NCBI RefSeq assembly: GCF_010728325.1
Contig: NZ_AP022570.1
Span: 5,146,001-5,210,000, forward strand
Origin: Mycolicibacterium poriferae
GTDB lineage: Bacteria > Actinomycetota > Actinomycetes > Mycobacteriales > Mycobacteriaceae
Direction of reading: 5' to 3'
DNA: 64,000 nt
Shown here: one piece after another, positions 2,580 through 58,254 of the stretch
How positions within the stretch are numbered: the stretch's first letter is position 1
How the letters are laid out: every line of letters starts with the position of its first letter
The notes under the pieces: generated by a model
The model's input: the letters and a program-made list of their open reading frames with translations, nothing else
Databases searched by the model: none
What the model was told of the DNA's origin: nothing
Made by a program: the position numbers and the translations under genes

Positions 2580-2651
2580 TCCGTCGTGGTGTAATCGGCA
2601 GCACCTCTGATTTTGGTTCAGATAGTTCAGGTTCGAGTCCTGGCGACGGAG
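2580..2651 (+). tRNA. tRNA-Gln (anticodon TTG)
   Basis: A complete cloverleaf can be folded. The 7-bp acceptor stem pairs TCCGTCG with CGACGGA. The anticodon stem TCTGA/TCAGA encloses a 7-base loop with TTG, reading CAA codons. The T arm carries GTTCGAGTCC. No encoded CCA follows directly (the next bases are CA). Confidence 0.95.
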
Positions 2652-2656
2652 CAGTG

Positions 2657-2730
2657 ACCGCGGCGACCGTGCGCGGAATGCCGGCGCTGACCGGCGCGTC
2701 GGGGGACAAACACGCACGCTCGCCGGGAAC
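2657..2730 (+). repeat. Interspersed ~70-bp repeat, copy 1 (diverged)
   Basis: This stretch between tRNA-Gln and glmU resembles the elements at 15693-15763 and 18231-18304. Shared landmarks, in order, are CGGCGA(C/G)CG, GCGCGGAATGCC, a GC-rich centre, and ACACGC(A/G)CGCTCGC. The ends are rough inverted complements of each other, so it could fold as a hairpin. It is the least conserved copy. By eye only; no alignment score was computed. Confidence 0.55.
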
Positions 2731-2751
2731 TGGACCGCGGGAAGGACTGTG

Positions 2752-4218
2752 ATGAGTGAGGCCGCCGTCCTGATTCTCGCTGCAGGAGCGGGCACCCGGA
2801 TGAAGTCCGACACCCCCAAGGTGCTGCACACCCTGGCCGGGCGCAGCATGCTCGCCCATTCGCTGCACGCGGTGACGAAGGTGGCGCCGCGCCACCTGGT
2901 GGTCGTCGCGGGCCGCGACCGGGAACGCGTGGCGCCCGCCGCCCTCGACATCGGCAGGGACCTGGGCCGCGACGTGCAGATCGCCGTGCAGGAAGAGCAG
3001 CTGGGCACAGGTCACGCCGTGGTCTGCGGGCTCAGCGCGCTGCCCGAGGACTTCACCGGGGTCGTCGTCGTGACCGCGGGGGACGTACCGCTGCTCGACG
3101 CCGCGACCCTGGCCGAGCTGGTGGCCACCCACAGCGCCGAAGCGGCGCTGGTCACGGTGCTGACCACCACCCTGCCCGACCCGACCGGCTACGGCCGGGT
3201 GCTGCGCACCCAGGACGGCGACGTCATCGGCATCGTCGAACAGGCAGACGCCACCCCGTCGCAGCAGGCGATCACCGAGGTCAACGCCGGGGTGTACGCC
3301 TTCGACATCGCTGCGCTGCGCTCGGCGCTGAGCCGGCTGAGCGCCGACAACGCCCAGCACGAGTTGTACCTGACCGACGTCATCGCGATCGTGCGCGCCG
3401 ACGGTCACCTGGTGCGCGCCCACCACGTCGACGACGCCTCGCTGGTCGCCGGCGTCAACGACCGTGTGCAGCTGTCCGAGCTGGCGGCCGAACTGAACCG
3501 GCGCCTGGTGGCGGCCCATCAACGCAACGGGGTGACGGTCATCGACCCGGCCTCGACGTGGATCGACGTCGACGTCATGATCGGCCGCGACACCGTCGTG
3601 CGGCCCGGCACCCAGCTGCTCGGCGGCACCCGCATAGGGTCGCGCTGCGACATCGGCCCGGACACGACGCTGACGGACGTGACGGTCGGCGACGCCGCCG
3701 AGGTCGTACGCACCCACGCCACGTCGGCGGAGATCGGTGACGAGGCCACCGTCGGCCCCTTCACCTACCTGCGCCCCGGCAGCAAGCTGGGCAGCGCCGG
3801 CAAGCTCGGCGCGTTCGTCGAGACCAAGAACGCCGCGATCGGCGCCGGCAGCAAGGTGCCGCACCTGACCTACGTCGGCGACGCCGACATCGGTGAACAC
3901 AGCAACATCGGCGCCTCCAGCGTCTTCGTCAACTACGACGGGGAGACGAAGTCGCGCACCACGATCGGCTCGCATGTGCGGACCGGCTCGGACACCATGT
4001 TCGTCGCCCCGGTCACGGTCGGCGACGGCGCCTACACCGGCGCGGGCACCGTGATCCGCGACGACGTGCCGCCCGGGGCGCTGGCCGTGTCGGCGGGCCC
4101 GCAACGCAACATCGAAGGCTGGGTGCAGCGCAGACGCCCGGGCAGCGCCGCGGCCGAAGCTGCTCGACTGGCCGCCGAACGGGCCGCGGACACCGCCTCG
4201 TCTGAGGGCGAGAGCTAG
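2752..4218 (+). CDS. glmU: Bifunctional GlmU: glucosamine-1-phosphate N-acetyltransferase / GlcNAc-1-phosphate uridyltransferase
   Basis: Makes UDP-GlcNAc for peptidoglycan and arabinogalactan linker. The N-terminal nucleotidyltransferase motif [18 protein letters not shown] is at residues about 9-27. The middle contains GHAV and NAGVYAFD. The C-terminal half is a left-handed beta-helix of hexapeptide repeats with the acetyltransferase segment [20 protein letters not shown]. At 488 residues it has full family length. The ATG at 2752 is chosen because GAAGGA sits six bases upstream; the GTG one codon earlier is too close to it. It is a cytoplasmic and normally essential enzyme. Confidence 0.97.
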
Positions 4219-13170: not shown

Positions 13171-14153
13171 GCGCCGACCTCCTCGGAGTCTTCGGTGCGG
13201 TGCCCGGTCAGCGTCAGGAACACGTCGTCGAGGCTGGGCCGAGACAACCCGATGTCGTCGACACCGATGCCGCTGTCGCGCAGCCAGCCCGCCACCTGGA
13301 TCATGTCGTCGATACCGTCGGCGGCCGCGGTCAACTGCCGGGCGGCCTGATCGACGAACACCTCGGCCCCGGTTCGGCGCAGCAGCGCCTCGGCGGCCGC
13401 CACGTCCGCGCCGGCGGTGACCGTCACGACCAGGCTGGCCCGGCCGGCCTGCTGCTTGAGCTCCCTCGGTGAACCCTCGGCGATGATCCGGCCGCGATCG
13501 ATCACGACGATGTTGTCGGCCAGCTGATCGGCCTCTTCCAGATACTGCGTGGTCAGCAGCAAGGTGGTGCCCTCGGCGACCAATCCACGCAGCACGTCCC
13601 ACAACTCGCTGCGGCTGCGCGGATCCAGCCCCGTGGTCGGCTCGTCGAGGAACAACACCGGCGGCGATGCCAGCAGGCTGACCGCCAGATCCAGCCGACG
13701 GCGCATCCCGCCCGAATAGGACTTGACCACCCGGTCACCGGCGTCGGTCAGCGAGAACTGCTCCAGCAATTCCTCACCGAGGCGCGCCAGATCGCGGCGG
13801 CGGATGCCGTAGAGACCACCGATCATGCGGATGTTCTCCCGGCCGGTCAGCAGCTCGTCGACCGTGGCGACCTGACCGGTCAGCCCCATGTTGCGGCGCA
13901 CCGCATCGGGGTCGGTGCGCACGTCGTAGCCCGCGACGCGGGCAGTCCCGGAGGTCGGCTCGGTCAGCGTCGTCATCATCCGCACAGTGGTGGTCTTGCC
14001 GGCGCCGTTGGGTCCCAGCAGGCCCAAGACCGTGCCGGCCGGCACGGCGAAGCTGACGCCGTCGACGGCGGTGTGGTCACCGAACCGCTTCACCAGATCG
14101 ATGGCTTCGATGGCCCACTGCATGGCGTCGACGGTATCCGCGCCGACCGACAT
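13167..14153 (-). CDS. ABC transporter ATP-binding protein (DrrA-like)
   Basis: The nucleotide-binding domain has Walker A GPNGAGKTT, signature SYSGGMRRRLDLA, Walker B VLFLDEPT and the H-loop position replaced by Gln in LLTTQYLEEAD, a feature seen in DrrA-type subunits. The C-terminal extension of about 80 residues (VVTVTAGADVAAAEALLRRTG) is typical of DrrA. ATG 14153 gives 328 residues; ATG 14123 (MQWAIEA) is an alternative. It forms an operon with the permease and is divergent from the next gene. Confidence 0.9.
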   Translation of the reverse strand: MSVGADTVDAMQWAIEAIDLVKRFGDHTAVDGVSFAVPAGTVLGLLGPNGAGKTTTVRMMTTLTEPTSGTARVAGYDVRTDPDAVRRNMGLTGQVATVDELLTGRENIRMIGGLYGIRRRDLARLGEELLEQFSLTDAGDRVVKSYSGGMRRRLDLAVSLLASPPVLFLDEPTTGLDPRSRSELWDVLRGLVAEGTTLLLTTQYLEEADQLADNIVVIDRGRIIAEGSPRELKQQAGRASLVVTVTAGADVAAAEALLRRTGAEVFVDQAARQLTAAADGIDDMIQVAGWLRDSGIGVDDIGLSRPSLDDVFLTLTGHRTEDSEEVGA

Positions 14154-14213
14154 CTGCCCAACCGTTTTCGTCTCCTCCCGTTCGAACACTCGCCGTCCGG
14201 GTACCCGCCCAGC

Positions 14214-15659
14214 GTGGACGCGCAGTGGTTCAGCGCGCCGGAATACTGGCTGGCCCGCGAGCTCGTGCAGCGGGGCGTGGCCGCGATCTATCTGATCGCG
14301 TTCGTCGCGGCGGGCCGGCAGTTTCGCGCGCTCATCGGAGAACAGGGCATGCTCCCGGTCCCCCGCTTCGTGGCGCGCGTTCCGTTCCGCTCGGCGCCGA
14401 GCCTGTTCCAGCTGTACTACTCCGACCGGTTCTTCGCCGCGGTGTGCTGGTTCGGCGCCGCGGTGTCCGCGGGCGTCGTCGCGGGCCTGATCAACGTCGT
14501 GCCGCTGTGGGCCGCGCTGGTGACCTGGCTGGTGCTGTGGGTGCTCTACCAGTCGATCGTCAACGTCGGGCAGCGCTGGTACGGCTTCGGCTGGGAATCG
14601 CTGCTGCTGGAGGCCGGGTTCGTGGCGGCGTTCCTCGGCAACGACGACATCGCGCCACCGCTTCCCGCGTTGTGGCTGGTGCTCTGGCTGGTGTTTCGCG
14701 TCGAGTTCGGGGCCGGGCTGATCAAGCTGCGCGGCGACGAATGCTGGCGCGACCTGTCCTGCCTGGACTACCACCACGAAACTCAGCCCATGCCCGGCCC
14801 GCTGAGCTGGTTCTTCCACCACCTGCCCAGACCGCTGCACCGGGTGGAGGTCGCAGGCAACCACTTCTCGCAGCTGGTGGTGCCGTTCGCGTTGTTCGCG
14901 CCGCAGCCGGTCGGTTCCGTCGCGGGCGTCGTCGTCATCGTCACGCAGTTGTGGCTGGTGGCGTCGGGGAACTTCGCCTGGCTGAACTGGCTGACGATCA
15001 TCCTGGCCTTTGCCGCGCTCGATCACACGGCATTCGCGACCGTGTTGCCGCTGGGCGATCCACCGCCGCTGTCCGGACCCCCACTGTGGTTCGCCGTGCT
15101 CGTCCTCGCCGCTGCGGCGCTGACACTGGCGCTGAGCTACTGGCCGGTGCGCAACATGATCGGACGCGGCCAACGGATGAACGCGTCGTTCAACTCGCTG
15201 CACCTGGTCAACACCTACGGTGCGTTCGGCAGCATCGGCCGGGTCCGCTACGAGGTCGTGCTGGAAGGCACCTCCGACACGCTCGGTGCGGAGCCGGTCT
15301 GGCGGGAGTACGGCTTCAAGGGCAAGCCCGGCGACCCGCGCCGGATGCCCCGCCAGTGGGCGCCCTACCACCTGCGGCTGGACTGGATGATGTGGTTCGC
15401 CGCGCTGTCGCCGAGCTTCGCGGCGGACTGGTTCCGTCCGCTGGTCAACCGGTTGTTACGCAACGACGCGGCGACGCTGCGGTTGCTGCGGCACAACCCG
15501 TTTCCCGATGCCCCACCGCGCTACGTGCGTGCGCGCCTGTACGAATACCACTTCACCACCTGGCGGGAGCTGCGCCGCGACGGGGCGTGGTGGCACCGCG
15601 AGCTGGTCGGCGAATACCTCCCGCCGGTATCGCTGGACCGGCAGCGGTCCTCTCGCTGA
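14214..15659 (+). CDS. Lipase maturation factor family membrane protein (LMF1-like)
   Basis: A 481-residue polytopic protein with about eight spans. LMF-type features are FGWESLLLEAGF, VFRVEFGAGLIKLRGDECWRDLSCLDYHHETQPMPGPLSW and, in the soluble C-terminal part, LVNTYGAFGSIGRVRYEVVLEGT and RMPRQWAPYHLRLDWMMWFAAL. The chosen GTG at 14214 starts VDAQWFSAPEYWLARE. No clear ribosome-binding site is visible. Family members help fold lipases in animals; the bacterial role is not established. It is divergent from the ABC exporter. Confidence 0.85.
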   Translation: MDAQWFSAPEYWLARELVQRGVAAIYLIAFVAAGRQFRALIGEQGMLPVPRFVARVPFRSAPSLFQLYYSDRFFAAVCWFGAAVSAGVVAGLINVVPLWAALVTWLVLWVLYQSIVNVGQRWYGFGWESLLLEAGFVAAFLGNDDIAPPLPALWLVLWLVFRVEFGAGLIKLRGDECWRDLSCLDYHHETQPMPGPLSWFFHHLPRPLHRVEVAGNHFSQLVVPFALFAPQPVGSVAGVVVIVTQLWLVASGNFAWLNWLTIILAFAALDHTAFATVLPLGDPPPLSGPPLWFAVLVLAAAALTLALSYWPVRNMIGRGQRMNASFNSLHLVNTYGAFGSIGRVRYEVVLEGTSDTLGAEPVWREYGFKGKPGDPRRMPRQWAPYHLRLDWMMWFAALSPSFAADWFRPLVNRLLRNDAATLRLLRHNPFPDAPPRYVRARLYEYHFTTWRELRRDGAWWHRELVGEYLPPVSLDRQRSSR

Positions 15660-15692
15660 AACCGCCCCGCGCTGGGGAACGACCCCCGCCGG

Positions 15693-15763
15693 TCCCCGCG
15701 AGCGCGCGTGTCGGCACCGCGGCGCGCCGCAGTTTCTGGCATTCCGCGCGCGCTCGCCGGCGG
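15693..15763 (-). repeat. Interspersed ~70-bp repeat, copy 2 (inverted relative to copy 3)
   Basis: Read on the minus strand it matches the element at 18231-18304 over its whole length: GGCGAGCGCGCGCGGAATGC, then a GCGGCGCGCCG core, then ACACGCGCGCTCGCG. By eye nearly nine in ten positions agree. Its ends are inverted complements, so each copy is itself hairpin-forming. It lies between the LMF1-like gene and the PTS IIC gene. Confidence 0.75.
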
Positions 15764-15815
15764 TCGAGCGCCGTTCCTGGTCGAGCGCCGCCAGAAGGGG
15801 TTCCAGGCGCGTCCG

Positions 15816-17387
15816 TCACTTCGGCGGTGGCGGCGGCGCGGGCGCGCCGTGCGGAGCCGGGATCTTCGGGTAGCTGCGGGCACCGCTCACCGCTGTGTCG
15901 CCGGCGGAGGCCGACTCGGCGGCGCCGGATCCGCCGGGCGCGGGACGCCCCGGTGACGGATCCCAGCCGGTGTCGACGAGCTTGCGCTGCACCGCGATGG
16001 CCAGCCCCAGCAGGGTCGCGCCGATCAACAGCATCACCACGACGCCCCAGACCGTCCCCAGTTTGGCGGCGTTGCCCAGCAGGATCCCGTACCAGCCGAA
16101 GTCGGCGTCGCCGAAGGTGGTGTTCTCTTCACCGAACGACCCGAGCACCCGCACCAGCAGCGCCGGCAGGAAGGTGATCAGCAGTCCGTTGACGAACCCG
16201 CCGGCGATCGCGCCCCGGCGTCCACCGGTGGCGTTGCCGTAGACGCCCGCTGCGCCACCGGTGAAGAAGTGGGGAACCAACCCGGGCAGCACCAGCACCC
16301 AACCGAACGCCGGGCCGAGCCACAACGACAGCACGGCCAACCCGGCCAACCCGGCCACGAAGCTGGAGATGAAGCCGATCAGGACGGCGTTCTGGGCGAA
16401 AGGAAAGACGATCGGGGCGTCGAGGGCGGGTACCGCGCCCGGGACCATCCGCTCGGCGATGCCCTGGAACGCCGGGACCAGTTCACCGAGGATGGTCCGG
16501 ACGCCGAACAGGATCACCGCGACCGCGACCCCGAAGCTCAGCCCTTGCGTCACACCCATCATCACGTAGTTGCCGACACCGCTGGCCGCGCCGGCACCGG
16601 TGTCGTCGGCGAACGCCTCGAACGCCGTGTCCTGACCTGCTCGAGCCAGATAGACCAGCGACACGATGACGTACATCAGCACCATCGACAACGCCGTAGC
16701 CACCATGGAGTCCCGCAGGAAACGCAGGGATTCCGGCAGTTTGAGGTCTTCGGTGGATCGGCTCTTCGCACCCCCGACGAACCGACCCGTGATGCCCGAC
16801 GCGATGTAGCCGAGCGTGCCGAAGTGCCCGATGGCGATGCTGTCGTCGCCGGTGATGCGTTTCGTCCACGGCTGTGAGATGGCCGGCAGGGCGACCATGA
16901 CGACGCCGAGCAGAACCCCACCGACCACGACGACGGTGACCGCGGGCAGTCCCGAGGTCGCGAGCACGATGGTCAGCAGCGTGGCCATGAACAGCGTGTG
17001 GTGTCCGGTGAGGAACACGTAGTGCAACGGGGTGAACCGTGCCAGCAAAAGGCTGATGGCGAAACCGAGGATCATCAACCAGGCGACCTGGCCGCCGAAC
17101 TGGTCCTGGGCGATCCCGACGATGGCCTCGTTGGTGGGCACCACCCCCTGGGTTCCTGCGGCCCCCTGGATCATCACGCCCAGGGGTTGCAGCGACGACA
17201 CGACCAGGGTGGCGCCTGCGCTGATGAGCAGAAAGCCCAATGTGGCCTTCAGCGCTCCGCCGATCACCTGGCCGGTGGACTTGCGCAGCGCGATAAGCCC
17301 GACAGCCGTGATGATCCCGATGAGATAGGCTGGTACAGAGAGTATTTCGTTGACGACGAACTCGGCGATGCTTACCAGCCAATTCAC
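15816..17387 (-). CDS. PTS ascorbate-type permease, EIIC component (UlaA/SgaT-like)
   Basis: A 523-residue membrane protein with about ten to twelve spans and a Pro/Gly/Ala-rich cytoplasmic tail (from about residue 475). The TPLHYVFLTGHHTLFMATLL, GHFGTLGYIASG and LPGLVPHFFTGGAAGVYGNATGGRRGA stretches are typical of the ascorbate (UlaA/SgaT) transporter family. It would import and phosphorylate its sugar with the EIIA-EIIB gene 19 bases upstream. No ulaD/E/F/G-type catabolic genes are nearby, so the substrate is inferred only from family. PTS genes are uncommon in mycobacteria. Confidence 0.9.
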   Translation of the reverse strand: MNWLVSIAEFVVNEILSVPAYLIGIITAVGLIALRKSTGQVIGGALKATLGFLLISAGATLVVSSLQPLGVMIQGAAGTQGVVPTNEAIVGIAQDQFGGQVAWLMILGFAISLLLARFTPLHYVFLTGHHTLFMATLLTIVLATSGLPAVTVVVVGGVLLGVVMVALPAISQPWTKRITGDDSIAIGHFGTLGYIASGITGRFVGGAKSRSTEDLKLPESLRFLRDSMVATALSMVLMYVIVSLVYLARAGQDTAFEAFADDTGAGAASGVGNYVMMGVTQGLSFGVAVAVILFGVRTILGELVPAFQGIAERMVPGAVPALDAPIVFPFAQNAVLIGFISSFVAGLAGLAVLSLWLGPAFGWVLVLPGLVPHFFTGGAAGVYGNATGGRRGAIAGGFVNGLLITFLPALLVRVLGSFGEENTTFGDADFGWYGILLGNAAKLGTVWGVVVMLLIGATLLGLAIAVQRKLVDTGWDPSPGRPAPGGSGAAESASAGDTAVSGARSYPKIPAPHGAPAPPPPPK

Positions 17388-17406
17388 GATGAACTCCTTG
17401 ATGAGG

Positions 17407-18180
17407 TCAGACGTCGTAGGAGTCGCGCAGCGTCGAATCGATCTCGCGCGTGGAGGTGAAGTTCTCGATCACCTTGACGGGCACTCCCACATCGCCGAGG
17501 GTCCGGGCGATCTCGCCGGACGTCAGGATCAGGTCGGCTTCTTTGGCCCTGCCCTTGGCTGAGATGGTGTCGGTGGCCTCGACTTTGATGAACGGCGCCC
17601 ACCCCCAGGTGGACAGCACCTGCTCCAGCGTGTTCTTCAGAAAAAGGCTGGTGCCCAAGCCGTTTCCGCAGACTGTCAGGATCAGGTTCTTGGGCTGCGA
17701 CGCACCGCTGGACGCAGCTGCCGACGCCGGCGCCGTGGAACCCAGCGCCGCGAGCAACTCGTCGGGGGTCGCCGCGGACTCCAGTGCAGCACGCCGGTCG
17801 GTGTCACCGAGCAGCTTGGCCAACTCGGCCATCGCGGTGTTGTGGGCGCCGGAGTCGGTGGCGGCCAGCGCGACGACCAGCGATACCGGGTCATTGCTCT
17901 TGTGGCCGAAGGAAACTGGGTGGGCCAGTCGCACCCAGGACATGCCGGTGTGGTGGACGGCAGGAGACGGTCGGGCATGTGCGAAGGCGAAACCCGGGGC
18001 CACCACGATGTAGGGGCCGTTGGATTCGACGTTGTCGATCATCGACTGCGTGTAGGGGGCATCGGCGATTCCGGCGCGTTCCAGTAATTCACCCGCCGCG
18101 ACGATCGATTCCTGCCAGGTTTCCGCGGCCACGTCCAGCGCGATGCAGTTCGCAGACAGTAGCTCGAGCAGGTCGGCCAT
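17407..18180 (-). CDS. PTS EIIA-EIIB fusion, ascorbate/L-type
   Basis: A 257-residue two-domain protein. Residues 1-145 are an EIIA domain with phospho-acceptor His68 in GFAFAHARPS. A short Ala/Ser-rich linker leads to an EIIB domain at about 163-257 with phospho-acceptor Cys171 in LILTVCGNGLGTS. Phosphate should pass HPr to His68 to Cys171 to sugar in the IIC subunit. In E. coli the Ula A and B units are separate proteins, so this is a fusion. No EI or HPr gene is in the window. It heads the minus-strand operon. Confidence 0.92.
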   Translation of the reverse strand: MADLLELLSANCIALDVAAETWQESIVAAGELLERAGIADAPYTQSMIDNVESNGPYIVVAPGFAFAHARPSPAVHHTGMSWVRLAHPVSFGHKSNDPVSLVVALAATDSGAHNTAMAELAKLLGDTDRRAALESAATPDELLAALGSTAPASAAASSGASQPKNLILTVCGNGLGTSLFLKNTLEQVLSTWGWAPFIKVEATDTISAKGRAKEADLILTSGEIARTLGDVGVPVKVIENFTSTREIDSTLRDSYDV

Positions 18181-18230
18181 GGCCGAACCCTACCCAAACC
18201 CGTCGGGGCAGTTACCCGATTTGCGCGGTC

Positions 18231-18304
18231 ACCGGCGGCGAGCGCGCGCGAAATGCCAGGAATTGCGGCGCGCCGCCGCGCAGACACGCGCGCTCGCGGA
18301 AACT
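18231..18304 (+). repeat. Interspersed ~70-bp repeat, copy 3
   Basis: It starts at GGCGGCGAGCGCGCGCG, has AAATGCCAGGAATTGC and a GCGGCGCGCCG core, and ends at ACACGCGCGCTCGCG. It lies between the start of the PTS EIIAB gene and the stop of the pks16-like gene and is in the opposite orientation to copy 2. Together the two bracket the PTS operon. Confidence 0.75.
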
Positions 18305-19937
18305 AGGTGACCAGGGAGACCGAGGTGGAGCGGCGCAGCTTGCCCGAGGAGGTCTTCGGGATGCTGCCCGGTCCGAGCACCACGACGTTGCGGGGACGCA
18401 CGTCCACCTCGGCGACGACCTCGTGAGCCACCTGGTGCTCGATCCGGCGCACCTCGACCGGGTCCTGCCAGGCGTTGGACTCGACCGCGACGGCGAAGGT
18501 CTCACGGGAATGGCCGGCGTCCAGACGCACCGCCACCGCGCACCCCGGACGCACCCCGTCCACCCGGCCGGCGGCGCGCTCGATGTCGGTCGGATAGATG
18601 TTGCGGCCGGCCATGATGATCACGTCCTTGACGCGACCGCAGACCACCACGTTGCCCTCCTCGGTCATGTAGCCGAGGTCGCCGGTGTCGTACCAGCCGT
18701 GCTCGTCCTGCGCGGGGATGAACCCGCCCATGGTCATGTAGCCGGGCGTGACGCACTCGCCGCGCAACTCGATCACCCCGACACCGCGGGCCGGCATGAC
18801 CTCACCGTGGTCGTCGATGACGCGGGCCTCGAGGTCGGTGAGCAGCGGTCCGAGCTCGGCGAGGCGCTTGGTGTGCCCCTTGGTCGCCGGCACCGCTCGG
18901 CGCAGCGCGGCCAGCAGGTCGGCATCGACCTCGTCCACGGTCAGACCCCGGCCGCACGGCGAGAACGACACCGCCAGCGTGGTCTCGGCCATGCCGTAGG
19001 CGGGCAGGATCGCGCCCGGGTCCAGCCCGAACGGCTTACCGGCGTCCAGCAGGTCCTCGACGTCGGCGGGCTCGACCGGCTCGGCGCCGGACAGCGCGAA
19101 GCGCAGCGTCGACAGGTCGAACTCACCGGGCTTGGCCTGGCGGCGCAACCGCTTGGCGAACAGCGCGTAGGCGAAGTTCGGCGCCGCGGTCATCGTGCCC
19201 TTGTACTTGTCGATCAGCTTGGCCCACAGCAGGGTGTCCCGCATGAAGTCCATCGGCGTGACCTTGACCAGCTCGGCGCCGAAGTACATCGGGATGGTCA
19301 GGAAGCCGACCATGCCCATGTCGTGGAAGCAGGGCAGCCAGCTGACCATGACGTCCTTGTCGACGTCGTACTGCGCGCCGATGAACATGGCCTCGGCGTT
19401 GGAGTAGATGTTGCGGTGGGTGATCTGGACGGCCTTCGGCGAGCCGGTCGAGCCCGACGTCAGCTGCATCAGCGCCAGCTCGTCCTCCCCCACCTCCAGG
19501 GGGTCGACCGGATCGGCGGCCAGCAGGTCGTCGACCTTGAGGACCGTGATGCCCTTTTCCTCGAGCACAGGCACCGCCACCAGGAACGGTTCGGAGACGA
19601 TGACAGCCTTCGCCTCGATCATCCCGATGACGGTCATCGTGTCCTCGGCCCACACCGCCAGGTCGGTGCGCGGGGTCGGCTGGTGCAGCATGGTCAGGCT
19701 GGCGCCGCGCATCCACAGCCCCTGTGCGGTCGGAGCGATCTCGACCGGGAAACCCGCGAGAACGCCGACTGCGTCGCCGAGCCCGACGCCGGCCGCGGCG
19801 AGACCGCCGGCGATGCGCCGCGCTCGCTCGTGCACCTCACTCCAGGTGTGCCGAACCGGTTCGTACGGCTCGCCGGTCACCATTCCGCGGTTGCTGGTGC
19901 GGGCATTGCGGTACATCTTCTCGGTGAATCTGCTCAC
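18303..19937 (-). CDS. pks16: Acyl-activating enzyme (Pks16-like fatty acyl-AMP/CoA ligase)
   Basis: Despite the historical name there is no ketosynthase. It is a 544-residue adenylating enzyme: [19 protein letters not shown] is the AMP-binding P-loop, YDTGDLGYM and [20 protein letters not shown] mark the hinge and C-terminal domain, and [13 protein letters not shown] contains the catalytic Lys. It activates a fatty acid with ATP; transfer to CoA or an acyl carrier cannot be decided here. The GTG start follows GAGGAGG at good spacing. The length equals that I recall for M. tuberculosis Pks16, which also adjoins pth. Confidence 0.88.
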
Positions 19938-54146: not shown

Positions 54147-54775
54147 TCACTCGGCGGTCCACGGCGTGCCGTAGGTGGTGACGCTGTCGCCGGTGGACGA
54201 GATCAACCGGGCGAAGGGGCGCAACAGCACACCTCCGGCGGCGCCGGTGACGGTGCCGTGGGCGTTGGACACCGAGACCGCACCGCCCGGGCCTGTCACG
54301 CCGACGGCCAACGTCGCAGCTTCCAGCACACCGGGGCCATTGCCGAGGTCCACCGAGATTTCCACAGCCGGGAACAGCGGCGGGGTGTAGATCCGGTCGA
54401 TTAAATTGTCGTCCAGACCCCATCCGCCGAGCGTGATGTTGGGCGTGCGGTAGCTGAAATTCACGCCGATCCCCAACGCCCACGGGAAACCGATCTGAAA
54501 GCCAGCTCCAGGGTTCCCTCGAACTCGTCGGCGCCATCTCCGACCACCCGGTAGACCGCCCTGGCCGAGTGGAACCACTCCCTGGTGAGGCGGTTGCGAT
54601 CCAGCGGCAGAACGGCGTCGAGGTAGGTGTCCCACTGCTGGACCGTCAGCGTGCGTCCGCGGCCGTCGACCACGCTTACCTCATCGTCCAGGCCGGCATG
54701 CGACGTGGCCGCACCGACGAACAGCATCGTGACAGACCCGGCGATCGCCGTGAGGGTCCGGGTCTTTGCGTTCAT
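54147..54775 (-). pseudogene. mspA: MspA-family porin, frameshifted copy
   Basis: The N-terminal frame from ATG 54775 encodes a signal peptide and mature GLDDEVSVVDGRGRTLTVQQWDTYLDAVLPLDRNRLTREWFHSARAVYRVVG. The C-terminal frame (IGFPWALGIGVNFSYRTPNITLGGWGLDD... to TTYGTPWTAE) is one base out. The break is at a GG run near 54502; adding one base restores the ELGFQIGFPW seen in the neighbour copy as ELGYQVGFPW. Both halves are otherwise well conserved, so the loss is recent or a sequencing error. Intact, it would be an outer-membrane porin. Confidence 0.85.
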
Positions 54776-54880
54776 TGCCCACAAAGCTTCTCAAATCCGC
54801 CCGCAGACGATCGACAGTCTTGACGATCTTGTTCATCGGCGACGCCTGGCTCCGCATCGATCCTCTGACGCGAAAAGCAG

Positions 54881-54909
54881 TCAGCCCCCGGCCGGAAGCC
54901 GAGGGCTGA
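54881..54909 (-). terminator. Intrinsic terminator of the intact mspA
   Basis: TCAGCCC/GGGCTGA and CGGC/GCCG pair around a short loop with one A-C mismatch. On the minus strand a TTTT tract follows (54873-54876). It begins 18 bases after the mspA stop. Confidence 0.8.
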
Positions 54910-54927
54910 CCACTTAAGGAGTGTGTG

Positions 54928-55581
54928 TCAGTTCATGTTCCAAGGCTCGCCGTAGGTGGTGACGCTGTCACCGCTCGACGAGATCAGGCGAGCGAACGGA
55001 CGCAGCAGCACACCACCGGCCGCACCGGTGACCGTCCCGTGAGCGTTCGAAACCGCGACGGCACCGCCGGGGCCCTCGACGTCCACCGAGAAGGTCGCGA
55101 CCTCCTGGATGCCGGGGCCGTTGCCCAGATCAGCCGAGATCGAAACACCCGGGAACAGCGGCGGGGTCACGATGCTGTCGCCGAGGCCCAAGAAGGGGTC
55201 GATTTCACCCTCGGGCGCGAAGCCGTAACCGTCGAACGCGATGTTGGGGGTGGTGTAGCTGAAGTTGATGCCCACACCCAGCGACCACGGGAAGCCGACC
55301 TGGTAGCCGAGCTCCATGGTGCCCTCGAACTCGTCGGCACCTTCGCCGGCCACGGCGTAGACAGCCCGGCCCGAGTGGAACCACTCGCGGGTCAGCCGGT
55401 TGCGGTCCAGCGGAAAGACGCCGTTGAGGAACGTGTCCCACTGCTGGATCGTCAGAGTCCGACCCTGGCCGTCGACCAAGCTCAGCTCATTGTCCAGCCC
55501 AGCGTGAGAGGTGCCAGTGCTCACGAACAAAGCCGCGATGGATGCGACCATCGCGATCAGCACCCGACTGATTGCCTTCAT
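54928..55581 (-). CDS. mspA: MspA-family outer-membrane porin
   Basis: A 217-residue octameric porin that lets small hydrophilic solutes through the mycobacterial outer membrane. The signal peptide runs to about residue 28 (STGTSHA|GLDNEL). The rim domain is GLDNELSLVDGQGRTLTIQQWDTF, and the barrel strands end in GDSVTTYGEPWNMN, identical to my recollection of MspA. The stretch around PEGEIDPFLGLGD is the variable loop before the acidic constriction. GGGAG precedes ATG 55581. It is tandem to a frameshifted copy downstream. Confidence 0.95.
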   Translation of the reverse strand: MKAISRVLIAMVASIAALFVSTGTSHAGLDNELSLVDGQGRTLTIQQWDTFLNGVFPLDRNRLTREWFHSGRAVYAVAGEGADEFEGTMELGYQVGFPWSLGVGINFSYTTPNIAFDGYGFAPEGEIDPFLGLGDSIVTPPLFPGVSISADLGNGPGIQEVATFSVDVEGPGGAVAVSNAHGTVTGAAGGVLLRPFARLISSSGDSVTTYGEPWNMN

Positions 55582-56868: not shown

Positions 56869-58254
56869 TCACTGGGCTGCCCTGCCGAGGGTGACCTGCA
56901 CGGTCTGGGAGCGGCCGGACGGGTCGACGTAGGTCAGCGTGACGGTGTCACCGGGGGCTTTGGACCGCACCGCCGCGACCAACGCGTCGGCGCTGCCGAT
57001 GACCCGGTCGTCGAGCTTGGTGACCACGACGCCGTTGGGCAGACCTGCCGCCGAGGCGGCGCCGCCGGAGGTGACCTCGACGATCTTGGCGCCGTCGATG
57101 CCGGCGTCATTGCCCACCTGCACGCCCAGCGAGGCGCGCGACGCGGTGCCGGTCTGGATCAGTTCGTCGGCGATGCGCTTGGCCTGATCGACCGGGATGG
57201 CGAAACCCAGCCCGATCGAGCCGCCCTGCGCACCGCCGGCGTCCGCGCCCAGAGTCGCGATCGCCGAGTTGATGCCGACCAGTTCGCCGTTCATGTTGAC
57301 CAGCGCGCCGCCGGAGTTGCCCGGGTTGATCGCGGCGTCGGTCTGGATGGCGTCGAGCACGGTGTTCTGGTTCTGCGCGTCTCCGCCGGCGGCCACCGGA
57401 CGGTTCAGGGCGCTGATGATACCGGTGGTCACGGTGCCCTCCAAGCCGAGAGGCGATCCGATGGCCACGACGTCCTGGCCCACCTTGAGCTCGGCCGAGG
57501 AGCCCACCGTGATGGGGGTCAGGCCGGACACGTTCTCGGCGCGCACCACCGCGATGTCGCTGCCGGGATCCGTCCCGACGACGGTGAACGGAGCACTGCT
57601 GCCGTCGGCGAAGGTCACTTTGGTCTCCGCGCCGGACGACGCGGCCTGCGCGGCAGCCACCACGTGGTTGTTGGTCAGGATCAGGCCGTCGGTCGACAGG
57701 ATGACGCCGGATCCCTCCTCGGACGCCCGGCCGCGGTCCACCTCGAGCTTGACCACGCTCGGCACGACCTTCAGCGCAACCTGTTCGACGGACCCGGCGG
57801 GCACGCTGGCCGCGGGCACGCTGGGCGCTGCGCCCGTGGCGCTGATGCCGGTGCTGTGGTCGGGGTGCACGAGCATCGCGACACCGCCGCCGATCCCGCC
57901 GGACAGCAGCGCCAGAGCGACGGCTCCGACAGCCAGACCCGTCCCCCGGGAGCGCTTGCGCGGTGTGTGCGGCGGTGTCGACCCGTCCGGGCGCAGATAC
58001 TGCCCGGGGCCCTGCGGCATCGGGGCGCCACGGTAGGGGTCGCCGCGGTAGGTGTCATTGCGGTAGGTGTCATTGCGGTAGGTGTCACTGCGGTAGGCCT
58101 CATACTGCGAGCGGAACGCCTGGCGCTGCTGTTCGGTCGCGTAACGCCAGTCGTAGGGCTGCTGGGGCCCCACCTGTCCGGGCGGCACTGATCCGTGCAT
58201 ACCGGGTCGCGGTCCCTGGTTCGGGTTCTGCGGGTACCTCGGGTATTCGGTCAT
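56869..58254 (-). CDS. pepD: HtrA-like serine protease PepD
   Basis: A membrane-anchored envelope protease of 461 residues. The cytoplasmic N-terminal ~105 residues are Gln/Pro/Tyr-rich and hold a YRNDT repeat. One span, LAVGAVALALLSGGIGGGVAML, is near residue 110-130. The trypsin domain has His in NNHVV, Asp in GSDIAVV and Ser in GNSGGAL. A PDZ domain (SLGVQVGNDAGIDGAKIVEV...) ends the protein. It acts with MprAB in the envelope stress response. ATG follows AGGAAGAG. Confidence 0.95.
   Translation of the reverse strand: MTEYPRYPQNPNQGPRPGMHGSVPPGQVGPQQPYDWRYATEQQRQAFRSQYEAYRSDTYRNDTYRNDTYRGDPYRGAPMPQGPGQYLRPDGSTPPHTPRKRSRGTGLAVGAVALALLSGGIGGGVAMLVHPDHSTGISATGAAPSVPAASVPAGSVEQVALKVVPSVVKLEVDRGRASEEGSGVILSTDGLILTNNHVVAAAQAASSGAETKVTFADGSSAPFTVVGTDPGSDIAVVRAENVSGLTPITVGSSAELKVGQDVVAIGSPLGLEGTVTTGIISALNRPVAAGGDAQNQNTVLDAIQTDAAINPGNSGGALVNMNGELVGINSAIATLGADAGGAQGGSIGLGFAIPVDQAKRIADELIQTGTASRASLGVQVGNDAGIDGAKIVEVTSGGAASAAGLPNGVVVTKLDDRVIGSADALVAAVRSKAPGDTVTLTYVDPSGRSQTVQVTLGRAAQ
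58030..58093 (-). repeat. 15-bp tandem repeat in pepD
   Basis: GCGGTAGGTGTCATT is repeated about four times (last copies diverged to CACT, then AGGCC), encoding the YRNDT/YRSDT/YRGDP units of the PepD cytoplasmic tail. Copy number may vary between strains. Confidence 0.75.

Follow-up and report, generated by a model that had tools for sequence, protein, structure and literature searches.

Hairpin repeats facing each other across a phosphotransferase operon of Mycolicibacterium poriferae belong to a family that encloses a predicted nuclease gene in related mycobacteria

We analysed a 64,000-nucleotide stretch of the M. poriferae genome (the window; positions 5,146,001 to 5,210,000 of contig NZ_AP022570.1, assembly GCF_010728325.1), in which two copies of a hairpin element of about 70 bp lie on either side of a phosphotransferase system (PTS) operon. 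The element family is here named EL, and in related mycobacteria its copies enclose a gene, X, for a predicted nuclease. The gene names pks16 and pth were taken over from an earlier annotation of the window (the original prediction). The features concerned, in window coordinates, are as follows.

14073..15659, plus strand: lipase maturation factor (LMF1) gene, the convergent neighbour, whose stop precedes the left EL
15692..15763, plus strand: EL copy on the LMF1/EIIC side (covariance model, 68.0 bits, E 4.3e-12), sense to the LMF1 gene and antisense to the PTS
15816..17387, minus strand: PTS EIIC gene (EIIC-GAT)
17407..18180, minus strand: PTS EIIA-EIIB fusion gene
18232..18303, minus strand: EL copy on the pks16/EIIA side (covariance model, 78.6 bits, E 1.3e-14), sense to pks16
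18303..19937, minus strand: AMP-binding gene (pks16), whose stop precedes the right EL
2580..2652, plus strand: tRNA-Gln (ttg)
2657..2729, minus strand: third EL copy (covariance model, E 1.3e-11), between the 3′ end of tRNA-Gln and a GlmU-like gene
2749-4218: open reading frame (ORF) with Hexapep and NTP_transferase domains next to the third EL copy; from sequence and domains we take it to be GlmU

The near-identical inverted repeats that the original prediction had seen around the PTS were recovered as arms of 69 nt (15696-15764 and 18231-18299) with 90% complementarity, and the copy at 18231-18302, used as a DNA query, retrieved the one at 15696-15764 from the genome with an E value of 1.9e-20. 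The two ELs are 0.88 identical and are reciprocal best matches among the 44 copies of the genome, a resemblance that suggests that one was recently copied from, or converted by, the other. Each is read in sense and follows directly on the end of its flanking gene (LMF1 at 15659, pks16 at 18303), a placement that had been overlooked. The third copy, previously described as diverged and spanning 2657-2730, is a true member of the family on the minus strand, ending at 2729. An Rfam scan of the window at gathering thresholds returned two tRNA matches only and none of EL to a described RNA family. Each copy folds into a hairpin; the folding of the PTS-flanking copies is no more stable than that of dinucleotide shuffles of this GC-rich DNA (z -0.5 to -1.2), and the third copy is more stable than its shuffles (z -2.5 and -3.5). 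The case for the hairpin comes mainly from covariation across species.

The suspected REP-like (dispersed) nature of the repeat was borne out genome-wide: a DNA search found at least 23 EL matches among the best 40 of 94 candidates scored, and a covariance model built from 72 copies found at least 44 among the best 150 of 9480. Copy counts across genomes are likewise lower bounds. EL was present in at least 52 of 60 genus genomes, this one included, with 0 to 59 copies each. A family-wide draw of 121 genomes gave matches in nine, five of the same genus and four of other genera, the latter four with no match better than E 1e-4; EL is thus near-confined to the genus. The majority consensus of the sense strand is CCGCGAGCG-GCGTGTCTGCAC--CGACACGCCGC...GGCATTTTGCGCACGCTCGCGG (dashes, variable positions), the length is 60-70 bp and, by eye in the alignment, the ends are CCGCGAG and CTCGCGG. 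In the outer stem, columns 5-17 pair with 60-72 in 84.9% of alignment cells, with compensatory changes at pairs 14-63 (UA 30, CG 24, AU 5) and 15-62 (GC 66, CG 5). For the outer and inner structure together, percentage paired, double-change cells and covariation score exceeded all 500 shuffles, and the other two of the five measures, pairs with double changes and pair types, did not; the covariation of EL therefore rests mainly on the two outer-stem pairs. The inner hairpin was rejected as a proven structure, its columns being conserved and their changes not above shuffles. Two variants were seen besides: genome G006 alone carries same-direction tandem duplicates 82-105 bp apart (contig C1, 1529437, 2684311, 3084229, 3212132 and 5095541), and at one pks16 3′ end (locus L059, 11640-11700) an EL-like hairpin lacks the inner part by eye, suggesting decay by internal deletion.

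In other mycobacteria facing ELs bound gene X, which encodes a protein of about 295 amino acids. They enclose 22 of 26 close X genes (at least 58% identity, among fetched loci), and the proposal that the repeat can delimit a mobile unit gains support from several such loci. The set of 26 omits partial or broken X matches of at least 58% in genomes G021, G027 and G043, and includes the X of locus L237, which the gene caller missed and a search recovered. The layout is compact: one EL ends 44-125 nt (median 86.5) upstream of the X start, the downstream EL overlaps the 3′ end of X by a median of 6 nt, and the unit spans 1048-1198 bp, which leaves no room besides X; no AbiEii partner gene is present in it.

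The predicted fold of X combines an AbiEi-like N-terminal domain with a Vsr-like nuclease domain (five AlphaFold models, the mean pLDDT being below 75 in two). Its Pfam matches are confined to MTES_1575, AbiEi and DUF559, with no HUH/Y1 tyrosine transposase among them; the C-terminal domain matches REase_MTES_1575 (PF18741) at an E value of about 2e-7, below the Pfam curated cut-off, and the conserved acidic residues of Vsr-like PD-(D/E)XK nucleases are present. PADLOC returned AbiEi for one X (E 7e-9) and a homing-endonuclease model for another (7e-5). In NCBIfam, one of two X proteins had no match and the other had an unrelated weak match only. X is thus predicted to be an AbiEi/Vsr-like DNA nuclease, as judged from the models and domain matches.

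The flanks of X were also compared by a type-blind test for inverted flank pairs (threshold score 40), which was positive for 21 of the 26 close X genes and for 17 of 20 X genes at 50-56% identity, the latter mostly with another hairpin type, and for only 1 of 208 non-X control genes (219 chosen, 11 of which proved X-like and were removed). Among the four close X genes without EL and four relatives at 54-56% identity, six of eight carry a significant inverted flank pair of another hairpin; at the remaining two (L270 and L276) no significant pair was found, though inspection by eye reveals hairpin-like sequence. More distant X-like genes (33-37%) were rejected as a flanked group, with flanks in 2 of 20; the two sets of 20 were selected from a longer list of X matches. 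Mapped onto a phylogeny of 52 X proteins, hairpin types require 8 changes versus 23.8 for shuffled labels (0 of 200 shuffles as low), and the EL label alone requires 7. One branch with full support is entirely of the AGACGC type save for one unlabelled row; six of the 52 rows bear the motif label 'none', five of them EL-flanked by the locus analysis. Across three types, the hairpin thus goes with the lineage of X. In 80 named pks16 loci a second hairpin family, GAGCAGAC...GTCTGCTC, was seen 8 times, always intergenic and a median of 18 nt from gene ends; it was absent (0 occurrences) from Markov controls, and the same type flanks X genes at 50-56% identity.

Clustering of flanks placed the EL-X-EL units at four distinct places: locus 1, used in most genomes, flanked by gene B (peptidase M20) and gene A (AIG2-like); locus 2 in L262, L263 and L269, reversed in L262; locus 3 in L228 and L236, which have the upstream flank in common; and a fourth place in L253. 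Gene B was matched in 60 genomes and 30 of its loci were fetched. At seven of these, 3-49 nt separate the ends of A and B, and both EL and X are absent; five hold a solo EL, this genome's locus included (A lies outside the stretch in three and 1.4 kb off in one); eight hold EL-X-EL and one more holds it with X reversed; and nine are rearranged or otherwise different. In sp. PO1, a close relative of this genome whose pks16 is 99% identical, a broken X lies next to an EL beside gene A. A series running at locus 1 from an EL-X-EL unit to a solo EL, its order being inferred, is plausible. Elsewhere (G043, contig C160, 188175-189104), two EL matches coincide with or adjoin an X gene whose match is split into two parts; an EL may have interrupted it.

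The EL-X-EL layout, the four loci with their empty or solo alternatives and the tracking of X by hairpin type together suggest that X mobilises its hairpins. We accordingly favour, at a probability of about 60%, the explanation that the window repeats are members of a family whose facing copies enclose the predicted nuclease X in related mycobacteria, and that X likely mobilises EL. Copy number points the same way, with a median of 25 EL copies in 23 genomes with an EL-flanked X versus 3 in 37 others (p 2e-8), and EL is missing from none (0) of the 26 genomes with X and from 8 of the 34 that lack it. Several observations weigh against this explanation. Once phylogeny is controlled for, the association with copy number becomes weaker (median sign-test p 0.06): of eight phylogenetically independent pairs, on average 5.1 ran in the same direction, 0.1 ran in the opposite one and 2.9 were undecided. 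This genome has no close X (best 33% identity) despite its 44 or more ELs; flanks were found at two of its eight X-like genes, neither pair EL-like by eye. It is one of eight genomes, among the 37 without an EL-flanked X, that hold at least 10 ELs. Four of the 26 close X genes lack EL, and most of the 22 EL-X-EL units inherited a single common locus, so the independent events are few. Finally, target-site duplications, which the original prediction had proposed to search for and which would be expected of a MITE of a DDE transposon, gave no clean case: four orthologous site pairs compared by eye contained no clean insertion with such a duplication. They came from a scan that yielded 371 rows of candidate flank pairs, many of which fall on sites with an EL of their own.

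The PTS itself is rare. EIIC was matched in 12 of 198 genus genomes, one being a short weak match, and this genome has a single EIIC. Comparison of the pks16 interval across species, as had been proposed, located the PTS between pks16 and LMF1 in this genome and in one of 80 named pks16 loci, that of sp. PO1. In G179 and G185 the PTS lies near an amino-acid permease gene; in G166 and G012 a neighbour gene of the same length is found at that permease-type place, and the gene beside the permease is presumably sigma-factor-like, as read from sequence and domains. This genome and PO1 retain the permease gene with no PTS within 1.5 kb beside it. Judging from gene order, the PTS was relocated to the pks16-LMF1 junction in the lineage of this genome and PO1.

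Whether the operon moved as a unit bounded by the repeats, as originally predicted, is a separate matter. It could have travelled as one EL-PTS-EL cassette whose two facing ELs were acted on in trans by X, and the close mutual resemblance of the window pair and the lack of the PTS at this genome's permease locus speak for such a transfer. So does an EL about 20 nt past the EIIC stop in G179 and G185, oriented as the left EL of the window and accompanied upstream of EIIAB by a further EL (G179) or, by eye, an EL fragment (G185). That upstream EL of G179 is in the other orientation, however, and PO1 has the PTS with the pks16-side EL only (0.78 identical to that of the window) and no second copy on the LMF1 side. 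The 3′ end of pks16 carries EL in sense at 34 of the 80 loci, in antisense at 7 and not at all at 39, and from its occurrence in species without PTS the pks16-side EL is older than the insertion. Since EL is found there in PTS-free species and PO1 has the operon without a second copy, the PTS can occupy this junction without being bracketed; ordinary homologous transfer, or a deletion, could give the same outcome. The relocation thus stands, while movement as an EL-bounded cassette is possible, unproven and, in our estimate, doubtful; transfer of the PTS through EL homology would also fit.

Placement relative to genes bears on a second alternative, that EL is a 3′-untranslated-region (3′-UTR) hairpin, terminator-like or RNA-protecting, of the upstream gene, and that convergent genes each keep theirs, insulating X or another gene between them. 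With genes called by a purpose-made codon-usage caller, the 44 copies of this genome comprise 21 tandem-sense, 7 tandem-antisense, 14 convergent and 2 divergent, none inside a called gene; 61 copies elsewhere, from 60 loci chosen among the best-scoring covariance-model matches, comprise 23, 8, 24 and 5, respectively, and one inside a called gene. In tandem contexts sense thus prevails over antisense by 44:15 (two-sided p 0.0002), and the 5′ edge of EL lies a median of 11 nt past the stop codon (47 copies from other genomes). This sense bias, the compensatory changes in the outer stem and the persistence of the pks16 site while the genes downstream of it differ between species are what a 3′-UTR hairpin would predict, and the M. 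peregrinum loci L074 and L077 have there a hairpin that looks ordinary by eye. At the 3′ end of tRNA-Gln, EL was found in 21 of 37 named loci where the tRNA was found, always antisense to it and at the same site and orientation as the window copy. With respect to intrinsic terminators, the hairpin lies downstream of the stop codon, and no U-run follows the stem by eye in the alignment.

The pairing of copies is harder to reconcile with this alternative. By the original prediction's own standard, copies scattered without relation to gene presence would reduce the flanking of the PTS to chance; the copies are indeed scattered, but their pairing is not random. Once opposite-strand duplicates at one place were removed (keeping 52 of 56 copies in G016, 57 of 59 in G022 and 17 of 18 in G020), 24 pairs of adjacent ELs 0.2-3 kb apart were counted over eight genomes against about 6 expected from random placement, 19 facing, 5 in the same direction and none diverging, although independent placement at gene ends should, by reasoning and not calculation, favour same-direction pairs. 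In this count G012 was entered with a length of 5.18 Mb (5,201,667 in full). This genome has 8 close pairs against 0.94 expected, six of them facing, the PTS pair included. The other five (contig C1, 1330549/1331085, 1639489/1641438, 1957589/1958918, 3303328/3303646 and 4835336/4837544) enclose one to three ordinary genes and, in a further point against mobilisation by X, their members are not alike (0.56-0.71 identity). Together with the missing U-run, the compact EL-X-EL unit in which X terminates within or beside EL, the other hairpins of other X lineages and the single positive among 208 controls, the facing pairs make a 3′-UTR hairpin unlikely as the whole explanation, and such a role can be true as a second, acquired one. 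The simplest form, that the copies are just terminators, fits the 44 copies of this genome well and was rejected because it fits neither the facing-pair layout nor the link to X.

A trans-acting transposase unrelated to X (RAYT-like or IS) as the mover of EL, with X as cargo or a defence gene between copies, would account for the many ELs of this genome and the seven like it, and is distinctly improbable given that three hairpin types track X lineage, that such flanks are all but confined to X among the genes compared, and that every genome with X has EL.

Three further features of the window are recorded for completeness: an ORF with Gly/Asp-rich repeats at 162-1889 (Pfam PGRS match, E 4.2e-9); two adjacent stretches at 54158-55581 recurring at a spacing of about 800 bp with 75-77% identity, probably tandem paralogous genes; and a tandem repeat at 58031-58105 of about five 15-bp units.

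Mobilisation of EL by X would resemble the REPtron, described as a RAYT tyrosine transposase flanked by REPs (PMC3733652, PMC3116915). In the account of PMC3733652 drawn on here, REP elements are palindromes of 20-40 bp with a GTAG or CGTC end tag, and those known repeats of this type that have their own enzyme depend on an HUH transposase, CGTC-type REPs apparently having none. As far as these sources describe them, EL shares with REPs the short palindromic extragenic form, the position mostly downstream of genes and the close pairs in opposite orientation, and with REPtrons the flanking of a dedicated DNA-processing gene and the matching of several hairpin types to several enzymes. Unlike them, EL measures 60-70 bp without GTAG or CGTC end tags and occurs in mycobacteria, which the main text of PMC3733652 mentions 0 times, and X is an AbiEi/Vsr-like predicted nuclease, so that we class EL-X as REPtron-like and not as a REPtron. 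The TIRtron, given in the same account as a RAYT-like gene between long terminal inverted repeats, is similar in its single gene between inverted repeats and its solo copies forming families, but its enzyme is unrelated to X by fold. Compared with the Vsr-like homing endonuclease I-Bth0305I (PDB 3r3p), X adds the AbiEi-like N-terminal domain and sits between intergenic hairpins; it shares the AbiEi-like DNA-binding fold with AbiEi antitoxins of type IV toxin-antitoxin systems (PDB 6y8q), but has it fused to a nuclease, with no partner gene. The C-terminal match, REase_MTES_1575 ('Novel Vsr-REase', PMC3710099), was founded on a large multidomain protein, and the part of that source drawn on here tells of no link to repeats. 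We found no recognisable description of an AbiEi/Vsr-like nuclease tied to hairpin repeats in the open-licence literature searched.

By analogy with the REPtron, with an unrelated enzyme, we infer the following course for mobilisation by X. The AbiEi-like winged helix would bind the hairpin arms and the Vsr-like domain would cut or nick at EL, after which repair or rejoining would place a copy of EL, or of EL-X-EL, in a short spacer next to a stop codon. Decay of X would leave solo ELs, some of which may be kept as 3′-end hairpins of the upstream gene. The pks16-side copy of the window would be such a resident solo EL, the PTS having then moved into this junction, the likeliest, putative route being that the resident EL recombined with one at the 3′ end of the PTS. 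Tentatively, and at a little under even odds, these units may constitute a new class of mobile element: mycobacterial hairpin-ended units that encode an AbiEi-Vsr nuclease, carry their own hairpin in each lineage and spread by homing-like, nuclease-induced copying rather than by a transposase, with solo hairpins becoming gene-end signals and ordinary operons such as the PTS moving between resident hairpins.

If X spreads EL, EL would be a new type of mobile repeat, and a Vsr-like nuclease unrelated to HUH transposases would be the partner of a repeat family, with its own hairpin as a testable substrate. The same explanation, if true, would provide an origin for many of the hairpins found where mycobacterial genes end, and would offer operons a possible way to relocate.
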